This document shows, piece after piece, positions 50,357 to 56,960 of a stretch of 64,000 bases of DNA. The notes under the pieces were generated by a model. It did not search any database. It saw only the letters and a program-made list of their open reading frames with translations, and was not told where the DNA came from. The number at the start of each line of letters is the position of its first letter. Position 1 is the stretch's first letter. The translations under genes and the position numbers were made by a program. Origin of the DNA: Klebsiella pneumoniae (GTDB lineage: Bacteria > Pseudomonadota > Gammaproteobacteria > Pseudomonadales > UBA5518); the NCBI GenBank assembly GCA_945862145.1, contig CAMAXE010000001.1:124001-188000 (forward strand). The letters run 5' to 3'.

Positions 50357-50629
50357 ATGAAAGACCTTGCTGTCCGCATTGCTGTGATCGCGTTTTACGC
50401 CGCTGCTGCGGCTTCGTTCTTCACTGCATTTTCGCCGCTCGTGGCCGCCGTGTTGCGCTACGGCACGCTCGCGCTGCTGGTGGCGCATACGGCCGAGGTG
50501 CTGCTCTGCTTCCGCTGGGTGCGCGCCTATCCGGGCCCGCTGGTGCTCAGCATCCTGCTCACATTGTTGTTCGGGTTTGTGCACTGGATGCCGTATAAGC
50601 GCGCCGCCGAGGCGGCCGGACAGGCCTGA
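50357..50629 (+). CDS. DUF1145 small membrane protein
   Basis: 90 residues with three hydrophobic segments, starting MKDLAVRIAVIAFYA and ending near FGFVHWMPYKRAAE. GAGGAA lies 6-7 nt before ATG 50357. The HWxP end is typical of pseudomonad DUF1145 proteins, whose function is unknown. It begins an eight-gene rightward group and ends 4 nt before the DUF3604 gene. Confidence 0.75.
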   Translation: MKDLAVRIAVIAFYAAAAASFFTAFSPLVAAVLRYGTLALLVAHTAEVLLCFRWVRAYPGPLVLSILLTLLFGFVHWMPYKRAAEAAGQA

Positions 50630-50633
50630 GCGG

Positions 50634-52526
50634 ATGCGCCGCGCACGCGCGTTTTGCGTGGCTTTGCTGCTGGCTCTGCCGGGGCTCGGGTGGGGTGGCG
50701 ATCTCGCACAGACTGGCTGCGAGGACCGCAACGAGCTTCGTAACCTCTATGTTGGTGACCTTCACGTGCACACGGCCCTGTCGCTCGACGCGGCCACGCA
50801 GGACACGCGGGCGCGCCCGGCCGATGCGTACAGATTCGCCCGTGGGGAGCAGATTGGCGTACAGCCTTATGCGGCGTCGGGGCAGCCGCTGCGCAGCCAG
50901 CAACTGCGTCGGGCGCTCGACTTCGCCGCCGTGACGGACCACTCGGAGCTCCTTGGCGAGGTCGAACTCTGCCAGACACCCGGATCCGCTACCTACGATA
51001 CCTGGCAGTGCGCGCTGTATCGCCGCTGGCCGCGCGGGGCCTACTATCTCTTTAACTACACCGCCAGCAAGTCCCAGCGACTGGGCAACTGCGGTTCCGA
51101 CGGCAACGTGTGCCGCGAGGCTGCCGCCGGACCGTGGCAGGAAATCCGCATGGCGGCCGCCGCAGCGAACGACCCCTGCCGCTTCAGCAGTTTTGTTGCT
51201 TACGAATGGACCGGCTCGCACGGCAGCGGCGACAACCTTCATCGCAACGTGATTTTCCGCACTGCGGAGGTTCCGCGCCTGCCGGTGTCCTTTGTGGATA
51301 CGGGCAGCCCCGAGCGACTTTGGGAGACGCTGGGCAAGGCGTGCAGCAGCCCCGGCTGTGACTGGCTTGCCATTCCGCATAACGCCAACCTGAGCGCTGG
51401 CAGCATGTTCACCGCGGTGCGTCCCGATGGCGCGCCCTACCGTCGGGAGGACGCCGAGCGCCGCGCACGTGCCGAGCCTCTTTTCGAGATCATGCAGCAC
51501 AAAGGGGCCTCCGAATGCGTGGCGGCAGCGGGCGCGGGTGGCGTTGGCGCCGACGAGTCCTGCAGTTTCGAGCAACTCCCCTACGACTCCTTTGCCGGGC
51601 AAGTGCGACCGTGGGAGGCGCGCGTTGGGAGTCACACGACCGGCTATTTCCGGGATGTGCTCCGTGATGGCCTCCGGCTTGAGAGTCTGCTGGGCGTAGA
51701 CCCCTACCGGATGGGGGTCATCGGCAGCACCGATACCCATCTCGGGATAGCCGGGGGCACGCTGGAGGATCGATTCATCGGGCACGGTGGCGCCGGGCAG
51801 CCTGCGCGCGATGGCGTTCCCCCGGGATTGCCCGATGCAGCGGAATTCGGGCCTGGCGGGCTGGCGATGGTGTGGGCCGAGCAGAACACGCGGGACTCCC
51901 TGTTCGCGGCGCTGCGACGTCGCGAGACCTACGCGACCAGCGGAACCCGACCGCTGCTGCGGTTCTTCGGCGGCTTTGACTATCCGGCGGATCTTTGCGG
52001 CGATCCGGAGCTCGTCCGCAAGGGCTACGCCGGAGGCGTTCCCATGGGTAGCGAGTTGTCTGTTGCAGCCGGCGAGGGCCGGAGCCCCGTGTTTGTGGTC
52101 GCCGCGATGCGCGATGCGGTGGAAGGCCTGCCGCTCGCCGAACTGCAAGTCGTCAAGGGTTGGATCGGCCCGGATGGTCAACCCGGCGAAAAAGTCCTCG
52201 GGCTCGCCAAGGCAAGCTCTGCAGGCAGAGTCGATCCTGCTACCTGTGCCACCTCTGGTGGCGGGGCCGAGTCCCTGTGTGCGCGCTGGAGTGATCCCGA
52301 TTGGCATGTCGGTGATCGCGCCTGGTACTACGCCCGCGTGCTGGAGAACCCCAGCTGCCGCTGGAGCCAGAAACTCTGCGTGGCTGCAGGTGTTCGCTGC
52401 GAGGATCCTGCGACGATCGAGGAGGGCTACGACGCCTGCTGCGCCGCCACGCATAAGCCAGTCATCCAGGAGCGCGCGTGGAGCTCGCCCATCTGGGTGG
52501 GTTCGGCCAAGGGGGCGGGCGGCTGA
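50634..52526 (+). CDS. Secreted DUF3604 protein, PHP-like metallohydrolase
   Basis: 630 residues. Signal peptide (about 1-22). Metal-binding motifs of the PHP/amidohydrolase kind: GDLHVHTALS (His 44 and 46), AVTDHSELLG, IPHNANLS and GSTDTHLG. It has about 20 cysteines across the chain, unusual for a bacterial protein and suggesting many disulfides in the periplasm or outside. DUF3604 members are mostly uncharacterised; a phosphoesterase or other hydrolase role is inferred from the metal motifs. It is followed 3 nt later by a parvulin, which would suit a difficult-to-fold client, and then by a HupE-type permease. Confidence 0.8.
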   Translation: MRRARAFCVALLLALPGLGWGGDLAQTGCEDRNELRNLYVGDLHVHTALSLDAATQDTRARPADAYRFARGEQIGVQPYAASGQPLRSQQLRRALDFAAVTDHSELLGEVELCQTPGSATYDTWQCALYRRWPRGAYYLFNYTASKSQRLGNCGSDGNVCREAAAGPWQEIRMAAAAANDPCRFSSFVAYEWTGSHGSGDNLHRNVIFRTAEVPRLPVSFVDTGSPERLWETLGKACSSPGCDWLAIPHNANLSAGSMFTAVRPDGAPYRREDAERRARAEPLFEIMQHKGASECVAAAGAGGVGADESCSFEQLPYDSFAGQVRPWEARVGSHTTGYFRDVLRDGLRLESLLGVDPYRMGVIGSTDTHLGIAGGTLEDRFIGHGGAGQPARDGVPPGLPDAAEFGPGGLAMVWAEQNTRDSLFAALRRRETYATSGTRPLLRFFGGFDYPADLCGDPELVRKGYAGGVPMGSELSVAAGEGRSPVFVVAAMRDAVEGLPLAELQVVKGWIGPDGQPGEKVLGLAKASSAGRVDPATCATSGGGAESLCARWSDPDWHVGDRAWYYARVLENPSCRWSQKLCVAAGVRCEDPATIEEGYDACCAATHKPVIQERAWSSPIWVGSAKGAGG

Positions 52527-52529
52527 GTC

Positions 52530-53483
52530 ATGCCGGCGCTTCTGACCCGTTTTCTCCAAGCAAGGCCACTGCACTTTCTGCTGGGTGGCTGCCTGCTCTT
52601 CGTCTTGCTTGAACCCTCTGCGTCGCGGCGCGCCGTGGAGCCAGTGCGTATAGAACCGCACGCCGAGGCACGGTTGCGCGCGGGTTTCACAGCTTCGCTT
52701 GGACGGGAGCCCACACCGGCGGAATTTGCTGGCGTGCTGCGACAGGAGCAGGACGACGAAGTGCTGTTTCGTGAGGCTCTGGCCAGTGGTTTGATCGAGC
52801 ATGATGCGGTGGTGCGTCAGCGTCTTGCACTAAACATGCGTTTCCTCGAGCCCGCGGCAAGCGGCAGCGACGAGGACCTCGCGGCCAAGGCGATCGCGCT
52901 CGATATGCACCACAACGATCTCGTCGTGAGAAGACGTCTCGTGCAGTTGATGGAATTTGCTCTCGCCGATGTGCCCGCGGATCTGCCCGTGAGCGCTGAG
53001 GAGGCGCAGCGTATGTACGGTGAGCGCCGTGCCGAGTTGCTGCTGCCGGAGCGATGGAGGATCAGGCAGGTGTATTTCAGCGCCGAGCGGCGCGGCGAGC
53101 TGGCCGCGACCGAGGCGCGTGCCGCCGCTACCGCCCTTGATGCAGGTAAGGCTGACGCTGCCGCGGCGGCAACGTTGGGCGATCCGTTCCTCGGGGGGCA
53201 TGTGCTGCCGCTGCTCACGGGCAACCAGCTCGAGGGGCAGTTCGGCAGTGGGTTCGCGGAGGCAGTGGCCATGTGTCCGGTGCGCCGGTGGTGCGCACCT
53301 GTGATGTCCGGTTTCGGCGCCCATGCGGTGCTGGTGGAGGAACACGTTGCAGCACGGCTTCCCGGACTGGAAGAGCCAACGGTGCGCGCGCGTATCGAGG
53401 CCGACGTGCGTCGCCGCCGCGCCGAGCAGCGTCTGCTGGAGGGTATGCAGGCCTTACGGCTGAAGTACGGGGTAGCCTCATGA
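52530..53483 (+). CDS. Membrane-anchored parvulin-like prolyl isomerase/chaperone
   Basis: 317 residues. N-terminal membrane anchor (about 13-27), a SurA_N/PpiD-like helical chaperone part (about 40-150) and a degenerate PpiC domain (about 165-270). The usual first active-site His of parvulins (RHI-type) is replaced by Gln in IRQVYFSAER, and two Cys in MCPVRRWCAP could pair. This suggests chaperone more than isomerase activity. The stop overlaps the HupE-type start (ATGA), so the two are coupled. Inferred to fold the DUF3604 protein or the permease domain. Confidence 0.75.
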   Translation: MPALLTRFLQARPLHFLLGGCLLFVLLEPSASRRAVEPVRIEPHAEARLRAGFTASLGREPTPAEFAGVLRQEQDDEVLFREALASGLIEHDAVVRQRLALNMRFLEPAASGSDEDLAAKAIALDMHHNDLVVRRRLVQLMEFALADVPADLPVSAEEAQRMYGERRAELLLPERWRIRQVYFSAERRGELAATEARAAATALDAGKADAAAAATLGDPFLGGHVLPLLTGNQLEGQFGSGFAEAVAMCPVRRWCAPVMSGFGAHAVLVEEHVAARLPGLEEPTVRARIEADVRRRRAEQRLLEGMQALRLKYGVAS

Positions 53484-54484
53484 GGCCGCGCGCCTTTAGC
53501 CTGTTGTTCCTGCTCCTTGCATGGTGCTGTTTGTCGATCCCCGTGCAGGCTCACAAGCTGGCGCCTTCGCTGCTGGAATTGCACGAGGCGGGTGGCGGGG
53601 ATTACGAACTTGCCTGGAAGACGCCGCGTTTCTCACCAACGCCGGTGGCAATCGTGCCGCGCCTGCCGGATTTCTGCACCGACATCGGCGAGCGACGTGC
53701 GCAGTACGAGGGCACAGGGGTGCGTGTTGCGTGGCGCGTCCATTGCGCCGAGCCACTGGCCGGCTCGCTGCTGCGGGTGGACGGGCTGGCGGAGAACCAA
53801 TCCGCTGCTCTGATACGCATCGACTGGGCGGGCGGTGAAATCTCACAGGGTCTGATCAACGGAGGGCAGGCGGGTTTTCGCGTGCCAGTGCCTGCCGGTG
53901 CGCTGCAGGTCTCCTGGGATTACACCCAGTTGGGCGTGCGCCATATCCTGGGCGGCGCCGACCATCTGCTTTTTGTACTCGGCTTGCTGCTCCTGGCAGG
54001 CAGTACGCGCCGGCTGGTGTGGACGGTCACGGCGTTCACGGCGGGGCACAGCGTGACCCTGGCCCTCGCTGCGCTCGGCGTGCTGCGTTACCCGGTGGAT
54101 CTGGTCGAGTGCGCGATCGCTCTCAGCATTTTTGCGGTGGCGGTGGCGCTCGCCAGGGCTGACGCCGAACCGGACTGGATGCGCCGTTATCCATGGAGCG
54201 TTGCCGCGTTGTTCGGGCTGCTGCATGGCATGGGTTTCGCGGGAGCCCTGCGCGAGGTGGGCTTGCCTGCTAGCGATATCCCACTCGCACTGCTTGCTTT
54301 CAATATCGGCATCGAGATTGGCCAGCTGGCCTTTGTGGCGGTGGCCTTGCTGCTCGCCGTGGGCTTCCGGCGATCGCCACTGGCGCGCCAGTCCTGGCTT
54401 GCATGGGTGCCCGTGTACTTGATCGGTGTGCTCTCGGCATACTGGAGCATCGAGCGCGGTCTGGCCGCGGTCGCGTCGTTCTGA
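53480..54484 (+). CDS. HupE/UreJ-type metal permease with N-terminal periplasmic domain
   Basis: 334 residues. Signal peptide with predicted cleavage VQA/H after residue 24, so the mature protein starts with His (HKLAPSLLEL). A periplasmic domain (about 25-145) is followed by six or so membrane helices with the family motif RHILGGADHLLF (about 154-165), TAGHSVTLALA, LLHGMGFAGAL and FNIGIEIGQ. HupE/UreJ proteins carry Ni2+; this branch (HupE/UreJ_2-like) has no urease or hydrogenase nearby. N-terminal His is a hallmark of copper-brace proteins, so Cu or another metal is possible. Confidence 0.8.
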   Translation: MRPRAFSLLFLLLAWCCLSIPVQAHKLAPSLLELHEAGGGDYELAWKTPRFSPTPVAIVPRLPDFCTDIGERRAQYEGTGVRVAWRVHCAEPLAGSLLRVDGLAENQSAALIRIDWAGGEISQGLINGGQAGFRVPVPAGALQVSWDYTQLGVRHILGGADHLLFVLGLLLLAGSTRRLVWTVTAFTAGHSVTLALAALGVLRYPVDLVECAIALSIFAVAVALARADAEPDWMRRYPWSVAALFGLLHGMGFAGALREVGLPASDIPLALLAFNIGIEIGQLAFVAVALLLAVGFRRSPLARQSWLAWVPVYLIGVLSAYWSIERGLAAVASF

Positions 54485-54505: not shown

Positions 54506-54880
54506 TTGAAGTACGAGTGGGGAGTGTGCGGGCCGCTGCTCGCGAGGGTCGCGTTCGTGACGGCGCTGATTGCGGTGTCTATCGGCGCGGTGCTCGACCT
54601 CGGCCATAGCCCGGTAGTCCGCTGGAACGACAAGTTCGAGCATATCGGAGCCTTTGCGTTGCTCGCGTTTCTGGCCTGTGCGGCTTACCCGCGCGCGCAG
54701 CGCTGGCAACGGGTCTTTGCCCGCTTGCTGTGTTTTGGCCTGCTGATCGAATGCGTGCAGTGGTGGCTGCCTTGGCGCGAGTTCTCGCTGCTTGACCTTG
54801 CTGCCGATGCGCTCGGATTGTGCATGGTGCTCGCGCTGCCCGATGTATGGATTGGCCGCCGGCCTCCGGAGTCACTGTGA
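54506..54880 (+). CDS. VanZ-like membrane protein
   Basis: 124 residues, TTG start at 54506 with GAGG 6-7 nt upstream. Four hydrophobic segments with the family residues in NDKFEHIGAFALLAF (about 37-51), ECVQWWLPWREFSLLDLAADALG (about 84-106, Glu/Gln, Arg and Asp residues). VanZ-like proteins are of unknown biochemical role outside teicoplanin resistance. It overlaps the next gene by GTGA. Confidence 0.75.
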   Translation: MKYEWGVCGPLLARVAFVTALIAVSIGAVLDLGHSPVVRWNDKFEHIGAFALLAFLACAAYPRAQRWQRVFARLLCFGLLIECVQWWLPWREFSLLDLAADALGLCMVLALPDVWIGRRPPESL

Positions 54881-55332
54881 AGGAATTGCTGATCGTCTAC
54901 CACACGCAGAGTGGCAGCACGGCGAGACTCGCCAGGGCGGCCCTTGCGGGTGCGGCGCTGGAGCCCGATTGCCACACGCGTCTGCTGCAGGCCATGGAAG
55001 CCGGCGTCGCCGATCTCCGCGCCGCCTCCGGGGTGATCTTCTGCACGCCCGAGAATTTCGGCTATGCCGCCGGTGCCATGAAAGATTTTCTCGACCGTAC
55101 CTTCTATGCCCTGCAGCCCGAGCAGCTCAACCAGGCGTATGCACTGATCGTCAGTGCGGGAAACGACGGCAGCGGTGCGGTGCGCCAGATGCAGCGGATA
55201 CTGCGGGGCTATCCGATGCGCGAAGTCGCGCCACCGCTGGTGGTGCAAGGCGAGCCGGACGAGGGCGCCCTTGCACGCGCCGCCGATACCGGCACGGCGC
55301 TCGCGGCGGGCCTTGCGCTGGGCATATTCTGA
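54877..55332 (+). CDS. Flavodoxin-like / NAD(P)H-dependent FMN reductase family protein
   Basis: 151 residues from GTG 54877. It has the FMN phosphate-binding loop YHTQSGSTARLA (about 8-19), FCTPENFGYAAGAMKDFLDR (about 54-73, FMN isoalloxazine loop) and a third loop SAGNDGSGAVRQMQ. It could be an electron carrier for the neighbouring unknown enzymes. Its partner is unknown. Confidence 0.78.
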   Translation: MKELLIVYHTQSGSTARLARAALAGAALEPDCHTRLLQAMEAGVADLRAASGVIFCTPENFGYAAGAMKDFLDRTFYALQPEQLNQAYALIVSAGNDGSGAVRQMQRILRGYPMREVAPPLVVQGEPDEGALARAADTGTALAAGLALGIF

Positions 55333-55404
55333 AATCAGCGGTAGCAGTGCCGCACGCAGCGGCGCGAGTGGCATCGCCGCAGGAAACCGGGAGAGATACA
55401 GAAC

Positions 55405-56373
55405 ATGCACATCGAATCTGCCGAGGAGCAGGTGCTCGCCACGCTCCGCGACTGGTTGCGCGCGGGGCAGCGCACGTGGCTCTGCACCATCGTCGAGATT
55501 GCCGGTTCATCGCCGCGCCCGCTCGGCACACTGATGGCCTGCAATGCCACGGGCAGCCAGGCGGGTTCGCTCTCGGGTGGCTGCGTCGAGGAAGACCTGA
55601 TCGAGCGTCTGCGGGCGGGCAAGGTTGCAGCCGAGGCGCCCGAGTTCTGCAGCTACGGGCTGAGTGCCGAGGAGAACGAGCGTCTCGGTCTGCCATGCGG
55701 CGGGCGGCTGTCGGTGCTGGTCGAACCAGCGACAGACGCGAGCCACGGCGCGCATCTCGACCATCTCCTGCAGGCCCTTGCCGGGCGGCGCTGTATCACC
55801 CGCGTCGTGCCCTTGGATGGGGGTCCCTGCGCGGTGGAGCTGGCGGCGGCGGTCCTGCCGCTAGAGCGTGAGGGCGCGCTGCTGCGTCATACGCTGGGGC
55901 CCCGATTGCGGCTGTTGCTGATCGGTGCCGGCCAGTTGGCACAGAGCCTTTCACTGCTTGCCAGCATGCTCGATTACCGCGTCCTCGTCTGCGATCCGCG
56001 GCGCCAGGCGATCGACGCGTGGCGTGGGCCCGAGCTGGAACTGGTCTGTGGCATGCCCGATGATTTCATCCGGGCCGCTGGCGTCGATCGCCACACCGCG
56101 GTGATCACCCTGACCCACGACCCGCGCATCGATGACATGGCGCTCATGGAGGCGCTCACCACAGATGCCTTCTATGTCGGTGCGCTGGGCTCGCCTCGCA
56201 CCTCCGCCAAGCGGCGTGAGCGCCTGCGTGAACTCGATCTGAGCGATGCGCAGATCGCGCGGCTCCATGCACCCGTGGGCATGCCCATTGGCAGCAAGCA
56301 GCCGCTGGAGATCGCCATCGCCATCCTTGCCGAGTTGATCCAGTTGCGGCGTGCGGGCGCGGGCGCGCCCTGA
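55405..56373 (+). CDS. XdhC/CoxI-family molybdenum-cofactor insertion protein
   Basis: 322 residues. XdhC N-terminal domain with GSLSGGCVEEDLIERL (about 55-70) and C-terminal Rossmann domain with LLIGAGQLAQSLSLLA (about 172-187), HDPRIDDMALMEAL and YVGALGSPRTSAKRRERL. Known relatives bind molybdenum cofactor, help sulfurate it and deliver it to xanthine dehydrogenase-type enzymes. No such enzyme is in the window. A GGAGAG site precedes ATG 55405. It is followed with a 1-nt overlap by the MobA-like gene. Confidence 0.85.
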   Translation: MHIESAEEQVLATLRDWLRAGQRTWLCTIVEIAGSSPRPLGTLMACNATGSQAGSLSGGCVEEDLIERLRAGKVAAEAPEFCSYGLSAEENERLGLPCGGRLSVLVEPATDASHGAHLDHLLQALAGRRCITRVVPLDGGPCAVELAAAVLPLEREGALLRHTLGPRLRLLLIGAGQLAQSLSLLASMLDYRVLVCDPRRQAIDAWRGPELELVCGMPDDFIRAAGVDRHTAVITLTHDPRIDDMALMEALTTDAFYVGALGSPRTSAKRRERLRELDLSDAQIARLHAPVGMPIGSKQPLEIAIAILAELIQLRRAGAGAP

Positions 56374-56960
56374 TGGCAGTTGGCATTGGCGGGGTCCTGC
56401 TCGCCGCCGGTCGGTCGCGGCGATTTGGTTCTGACAAGCGCATCGCGCGTCTAGCCAGTGGCGAAACCGTTCTGGAGCGTGCGGTGGCGGCGTTTGCTCC
56501 GGCTGTAGACGAACTCTTCCTGGTGATCGGCGCCGAAGACGAGCCCGCTGCCTTCGCCGCCCGGTTCCCGGGCGTCCGGATCTTCAGTGCCCGCGACTCG
56601 GCGGCAGGCATGGGCTCATCGCTGGCCGAAGCCATCCGCGCGGCGCCGGCGTGGCGTGGCTGCCTCGTGGGGCTCGCCGATATGCCCTTTATTGCCCCGG
56701 GGACGGTACGCGCCGTGCGTGCCGCTATGGGCGAGGAGATCGTAGTACCCCGATACCGTGGGCAGTCGGGACATCCGGTAGGCTTCCCACATCGCGTCTT
56801 TGCCGCGCTCGCCGCCTTGCAAGGAGAGGCGGGCGCCCGGGCGCTGATCCTCGCCGAGTCAGCGCGCTGCCGCTTTCTCGATGTCGAGGATCAGGGGGTG
56901 CTGGCCGATGTTGACACACCCGAGGCATTGCGCGCCGCCGAGGCTGCCTGCGCGCGCTGA
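56373..56960 (+). CDS. MobA/MocA-like nucleotidyltransferase
   Basis: 195 residues. N-terminal nucleotide motif LLAAGRSRRFGSDKR (about 7-21), GLADMPFI (about 96-103) and SGHPVGFPH. Best match is the MocA/MobA-like branch that makes the cytosine dinucleotide form of molybdenum cofactor, used by xanthine dehydrogenase and CO dehydrogenase-type enzymes, in keeping with XdhC next to it. The last 70 nt overlap the convergent LysR gene. Confidence 0.82.
   Translation: MAVGIGGVLLAAGRSRRFGSDKRIARLASGETVLERAVAAFAPAVDELFLVIGAEDEPAAFAARFPGVRIFSARDSAAGMGSSLAEAIRAAPAWRGCLVGLADMPFIAPGTVRAVRAAMGEEIVVPRYRGQSGHPVGFPHRVFAALAALQGEAGARALILAESARCRFLDVEDQGVLADVDTPEALRAAEAACAR

Follow-up and report, generated by a model that had tools for sequence, protein, structure and literature searches.

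How enzymes that leave the cytoplasm unfolded through the Sec pathway acquire their metal is a largely open question; one solution is provided by the TerC proteins of Gram-positive bacteria. Three tightly packed genes raise this question in the DNA studied here, a stretch of 64,000 nucleotides (hereafter the window; positions 124,001 to 188,000 of contig CAMAXE010000001.1, assembly GCA_945862145.1, filed as Klebsiella pneumoniae with a GTDB lineage in the Pseudomonadales, UBA5518). They encode a secreted protein of the DUF3604 family, a membrane-anchored parvulin and a HupE_UreJ_2 membrane protein, and one may ask what the last two do for the first. An earlier note on this DNA had suggested that the permease supplies metal, and the parvulin folding help, to one secreted metallohydrolase. 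Our analysis partly supports this interpretation, and we give an even chance to the view that the parvulin works together with the HupE_UreJ_2 protein in the envelope, as a pair dedicated to the maturation of Sec-exported PHP hydrolases, namely, the DUF3604 proteins.

A three-gene set conserved across phyla

The features of the three genes are as follows.

50634 to 52526, + strand: DUF3604 protein, 630 amino acids (PF12228, E value of 1.2e-155), with a predicted Sec-type signal peptide (residues ~1-21), PHP-fold catalytic domain (~36-440) and C-terminal beta-sandwich (~440-625)
50763 to 51740, + strand: codons of the putative PHP metal ligands of DUF3604 (H44, H46, D52, D102, H103, E191, H203, H249, D367, H369)
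52530 to 53483, + strand: membrane-anchored parvulin (Rotamase_2), 317 amino acids (PF13145, 31.7 bits for a cut-off of 27)
53480 to 54484, + strand: HupE_UreJ_2 membrane protein, 334 amino acids (PF13795, 160.5 bits, E value of 3.2e-47)
53552 to 53893, + strand: predicted ectodomain of the HupE protein, a periplasmic beta-sandwich spanning residues 25-138, from structure matches of the model
53942 to 53965, + strand: HX5DH motif (H155, D161, H162) in the HupE membrane domain, conserved in homologues

As the earlier note had described, 3 bases (52527-52529) separate the first two genes, the last two overlap by ATGA (53480-53483), and Pfam assigns the products to DUF3604, Rotamase_2 and HupE_UreJ_2. 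Of 146 related genomes, 40 were found by a single-sequence search to hold a relative of the parvulin. In the ~40 regions taken around these matches, with flanks of ~5 kb, nearly every parvulin gene directly precedes a HupE gene and DUF3604 lies near most of them, its placement varying from upstream to downstream (L057, L064, L069, L081, L084) or divergent (L077). A scan with a HupE alignment over 84,980 species genomes yielded 80 named loci, with the parvulin directly upstream of HupE in 75 by a strict overlap criterion and in 77 by eye. DUF3604 is found within 8 kb in 49 of the 80 (several copies in 10 of these), and the copy closest to the pair shares its strand in 45 of these 49 linked loci. 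The linked trios span at least seven phyla (Pseudomonadota, "Deltaproteobacteria"/Desulfobacterales, Acidobacteriota [Vicinamibacteria], Verrucomicrobiota, Planctomycetota, Campylobacterota and Bacteroidota [Neptunitalea]), several of the records being metagenome bins with possibly wrong names and Neptunitalea and many of the Pseudomonadota being isolates. The co-occurrence within three genes across phyla, which the earlier note had proposed to look for, was thus found; it extends beyond close relatives and is not confined to marine gammaproteobacteria, where that note placed similar neighbors. In view of this cross-phylum order and co-occurrence, we rejected a chance operon.

All-against-all clustering of the open reading frames (ORFs) of the 80 loci returned only three recurrent real families, any other true family reaching at most ~6 loci; the other large clusters, judged by position, were antisense shadow ORFs, and no fourth family emerged. 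In a Vicinamibacteria bin, six DUF3604 genes surround one parvulin-HupE pair (L128:2840-16894). Beside pairs without DUF3604, the search for an alternative client gave neighbors that are unrelated from one locus to another.

Co-occurrence of the pair and DUF3604 beyond linkage

The association also holds at the level of whole genomes. In Fisher tests, which ignore the kinship of genomes, it reached 1.9e-29 among the 146 relatives (DUF3604 counted at an E value up to 1e-30 and present in 42, pair-type HupE counted at ≥270 bits and present in 41; both in 39, HupE only in 2, DUF3604 only in 3, neither in 102) and 2.3e-37 among 398 genomes sampled across Pseudomonadota (parvulin subfamily, counted at ≥213 bits, in 26 and DUF3604 in 26; both in 25, each alone in 1, neither in 371). 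One of these 25, G292, has a DUF3604 remnant only: its intact pair adjoins a stop-broken DUF3604 gene (L202:5133-7384) and the genome holds no further DUF3604, so that the client appears to have been lost recently.

Pair and DUF3604 vary together within families and within genera (g184, g188, g191, g194, g216), which speaks against a pure kinship effect. Since transfer of the operon could also yield variation within a genus, the unlinked cases weigh most. Among genomes with a main-subfamily HupE and no substantial DUF3604 nearby, 20 of 23 carry DUF3604 elsewhere (binomial 3e-21 at the phylum rate, 1e-8 at the relatives' rate; one of the 23 loci, L174, has a DUF3604 fragment at the contig edge), versus 2 of 9 genomes with a divergent, sister subfamily of the pair (Fisher 0.001), figures that are only a guide because the subfamilies were split by score after the neighborhoods had been seen. 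Unlinked co-occurrence was also seen in G052, G110, G081, G137, G067, G074, G138, G428 and G389, and the copy numbers of pair and DUF3604 track each other in G278, G505 and G260. In the genome of "Candidatus Litorirhabdus singularis" (L117), DUF3604 gave 25 matches, none of them near the retrieved pair locus, and large families occur in relatives too (G036, G008 and G052, with 25 to 33 first-look candidates).

The genome from which the window comes holds four more DUF3604 copies, including a divergent one, all of them without an adjoining pair. With up to 25 DUF3604 genes per genome for one pair, the "one" metallohydrolase of the earlier note is too narrow. As a possible clue to the substrate, the genes next to the host paralogues were compared, but they (thiolase, molybdopterin oxidoreductase, fatty acid hydroxylase, SelO) share no theme. 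We found no close paralogue of the parvulin in this genome. Its contig 4 carries a second, divergent parvulin-HupE_UreJ_2 pair with no DUF3604 (L016:3184-5765). Similarly, DUF3604 is absent near the sister-pair loci L138, L149, L154, L160, L166, L168, L169, L170 and L178, and mostly from their whole genomes; this divergent subfamily may therefore serve another client. A lone HupE_UreJ_2 protein without a parvulin neighbor is encoded on contig 15 (L015:5773-7479); in the reading used, its N-terminal region is unusually long, the Pfam domain starting at about residue 383 of 569. The earlier note saw neither urease nor hydrogenase that could explain the permease. This stands, as no NiFe hydrogenase was found in the host genome and a urease alpha model gave two weak matches (28.7 and 22 bits, over ~50 of 121 positions), which we read as probable other amidohydrolases.

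DUF3604 as a putative exported PHP metalloenzyme

The DUF3604 match covers positions 2-589 of the 591 of the PF12228 profile at 519.8 bits, over the curated cut-off. The 18 best solved structures matching its AlphaFold2 (AF2) model (pLDDT of 89.5) are all PHP proteins (Z of 15.5 to 7.7, top 3e38), and the model here shows a PHP alpha/beta barrel fold. The motif set of the PHP superfamily (HxH, DH, E, H, DxH) is present and conserved in 73 homologues: the ligand positions are invariant wherever aligned, with D102E as the one exception, and the HVH, TDH, PHN and DTH motifs singled out by the earlier note are nearly or fully invariant. The roughly 20 cysteines of that note count 19, one of them within the signal peptide; counts in homologues are bimodal (0-6 or 14-20), so that the Cys-rich trait marks one subclade only. 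We take DUF3604 to be, as modeled, a probable secreted PHP-fold metallohydrolase. PHP phosphoesterases (TM0559 [2anu], BVU_3505 [3e38] and Sb-PDE) share the fold and the ligand motifs, whereas DUF3604 is larger, with a long insert and a C-terminal beta-sandwich, and a sequence search of the PDB found no relatives. Sb-PDE is a secreted Zn phosphodiesterase of the PHP family, active when produced in Escherichia coli without such partners (PMC5460133).

None of the 73 DUF3604 N termini bears a Tat motif; most are Sec signals, some with lipoboxes, several starts having been picked by length and possibly cut short. DUF3604 would thus be expected to fold only after export, beyond the direct reach of any metal that an importer brings into the cytoplasm. 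The proposal that the permease supplies metal, in the sense of a HupE nickel importer, is therefore not supported as the earlier note put it, nor is nickel as the metal.

The HupE_UreJ_2 protein and the parvulin

Pfam finds only PF13795 and PF04955 on the HupE protein. In its AF2 model (pLDDT of 92.9), the ectodomain shows a fold like the metal-binding domains of ZrgA (8f1b, Z of 9.8), PA4063 (7bgo, Z of 9.5) and Ang-1 (9gce, Z of 8.4). ZrgA and PA4063 are zinc proteins, while the Ang-1 domain of another HupE/UreJ-2 protein binds copper/nickel (PMC12537917). Model residues 25 to 138 align on 1 to 157 of Ang-1, with His25, the predicted mature N terminus after signal cleavage, at the start of the match, in the place of the metal-binding His1 of the Ang-1 ectodomain (PMC12537917). 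The anglerase HupE/UreJ-2 proteins (Ang-1, Ang-2; PMC12537917) likewise have a PF13795 membrane domain after an N-terminal beta-sandwich starting with His. However, His1 is 100% conserved there, whereas here the mature N-terminal residue (codon 53552-53554 in the window) is His in 71/93 homologues and Asp in 21/93. Thus, despite its beta-sandwich and mature N-terminal His, the window protein was not filed as Ang-1. The alternation could possibly be a switch of the metal site. HX5DH is found in all 93 homologues, and H190, H249 and E279 are likewise invariant. Resemblances of the membrane part to ZIP, SLC19 and MFS transporters were weak and unreliable and were dropped.

All 83 parvulin homologues match PF13145 and form a distinct subfamily (at least 213 bits versus 82 for the next parvulins, barring second copies in the same genomes). 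Position 180 (codon 53067-53069) and H265 are presumably the active-site His residues. H265 is kept in 83/83, while position 180 is His in 46/83 and Gln in 37/83, with no other residue; the window has Gln. Unlike a catalytically complete PpiC-type parvulin, with both active-site His, the window protein, judged by its residues, may therefore be a chaperone whose isomerase activity is weak. Its profile matches chains of "Cell-binding factor 2," HP_0175, SurA and PrsA. It shares the parvulin domain and the envelope location with the PrsA, Cj0596/HP0175 and SurA foldases but differs in its link to a single permease and a single family of clients. A search for viral relatives found none.

Neighboring genes

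50357 to 50629, + strand: predicted membrane protein, 90 amino acids, without Pfam match

This gene ends 4 bases 5' of the DUF3604 start and adjoins DUF3604 in congeners only (L047, L048, L050); it is likely cotranscribed with DUF3604 and outside the conserved module. Downstream of the trio (54506-56960) lie genes for VanZ-like, flavodoxin/FMN-reductase-like, XdhC and MobA-like nucleotidyltransferase proteins, which do not recur beside it. Scans for promoters and terminators gave no signal exceeding chance.

Discussion

We propose a model in which DUF3604 would exit unfolded via Sec and would be held and folded by the membrane-anchored parvulin, which perhaps also folds the permease ectodomain. 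The HupE-type protein would bind a transition metal through its Ang-1/ZrgA-like ectodomain and the HX5DH membrane site and would pass it on in the periplasm, either exporting it locally or transferring it directly. A single pair would serve, in trans, every DUF3604 paralogue of the cell. The physical interaction, the folding help, the metal transfer, the identity of the metal and the hydrolase activity are what we infer. As DUF3604 is Sec exported, the site at which the permease acts must be periplasmic, whether its role is to capture metal like a chaperone, to export it locally or something else. In Bacillus subtilis, Sec-exported enzymes are metalated by membrane proteins of the TerC family, Mn having been demonstrated (PMC10550928), and this precedent makes chaperone-like capture or local export possible. 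With TerC (PMC10550928) and, as proposed, in the trio, a polytopic membrane protein that handles metal supports several Sec-exported metalloenzyme clients in trans. By contrast, TerC belongs to a separate family without such an ectodomain, and the trio adds a dedicated parvulin and a single client family. With its two Pfam domains, the window protein is not a member of the TerC family (PF03741), and the claim is that the system, as its best explanation by analogy, would work like TerC-dependent exoenzyme metalation. In its full form, this reading is tentative: an export-coupled metalation and folding system, mostly of Gram-negative bacteria, in which one HupE-type metalloprotein and an anchored parvulin would serve from 1 to more than 20 PHP paralogues, analogous to TerC plus PrsA with a different permease family and a metal-capturing ectodomain.

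An unlikely competitor is an uptake module, in which DUF3604 would hydrolyze an extracytoplasmic compound (e.g., a phosphoester or a metal complex) and HupE would import the released product or metal, with the parvulin as the foldase of either the enzyme or the permease ectodomain. Import of Ni is known for HupE/UreJ proteins, anglerase ectodomains were proposed to capture metal for uptake (in a paper that mentions neither DUF3604 nor an isomerase; PMC12537917), and the expansions of DUF3604 paralogues resemble substrate-specific hydrolases. However, one permease facing many paralogues of presumably differing substrates fits a shared maturation service better than a separate import route for each substrate, and the neighborhoods of the trio show no recurrent receptor or transporter family. 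Slightly less probable still, the parvulin and HupE would partner each other only, the parvulin folding the two-domain permease, in a general periplasmic metal supply of which DUF3604 would be the main but indirect client. Their mutual link is indeed tighter (~77/80) than that to DUF3604 (49/80), and the sister subfamily exists without DUF3604; yet such a supply would be expected in many DUF3604-less genomes, and the near-perfect co-occurrence is with DUF3604 specifically. Joint horizontal transfer and a shared niche, with no mechanistic link, would fit several genera, those listed above, in which a single genome holds the three genes while its congeners lack them, as transfer of the operon in one piece would predict. 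We nevertheless consider this reading very improbable, because the unlinked genes co-occur in 20/23 genomes and in the nine further ones named, and the gene order changes while the gene set persists.

Several points weigh against the maturation pair that we prefer. Full-length DUF3604 paralogues exist in the host genome without an adjoining pair; the pair is missing from G019, G031 and G086 although they carry DUF3604 (incomplete assemblies in two cases), and the reverse is seen in G473. One catalytic-type His is missing from the window parvulin (Gln at position 180), ectodomain position 1 is Asp in part of the homologues (21/93), characterized HupE proteins import nickel, and metal transfer, folding help and enzyme activity are inferred.

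A literature search, which covered few subscription journals, found no link between the DUF3604, parvulin and HupE_UreJ_2 families, only one paper with a passing mention of DUF3604 and nothing on PF12228. While its parts come from known families, the three-gene system as a whole appears undescribed. Its association beyond linkage suggests an undescribed system that makes a family of exported metalloenzymes work. Present in many culturable bacteria, the trio is compact enough to serve as a test case, and it ties an uncharacterized enzyme family to its likely helpers; DUF3604 proteins produced without the pair may be inactive. For this PF13795 subfamily, it points to a probable physiological role distinct from nickel supply to urease or hydrogenase.

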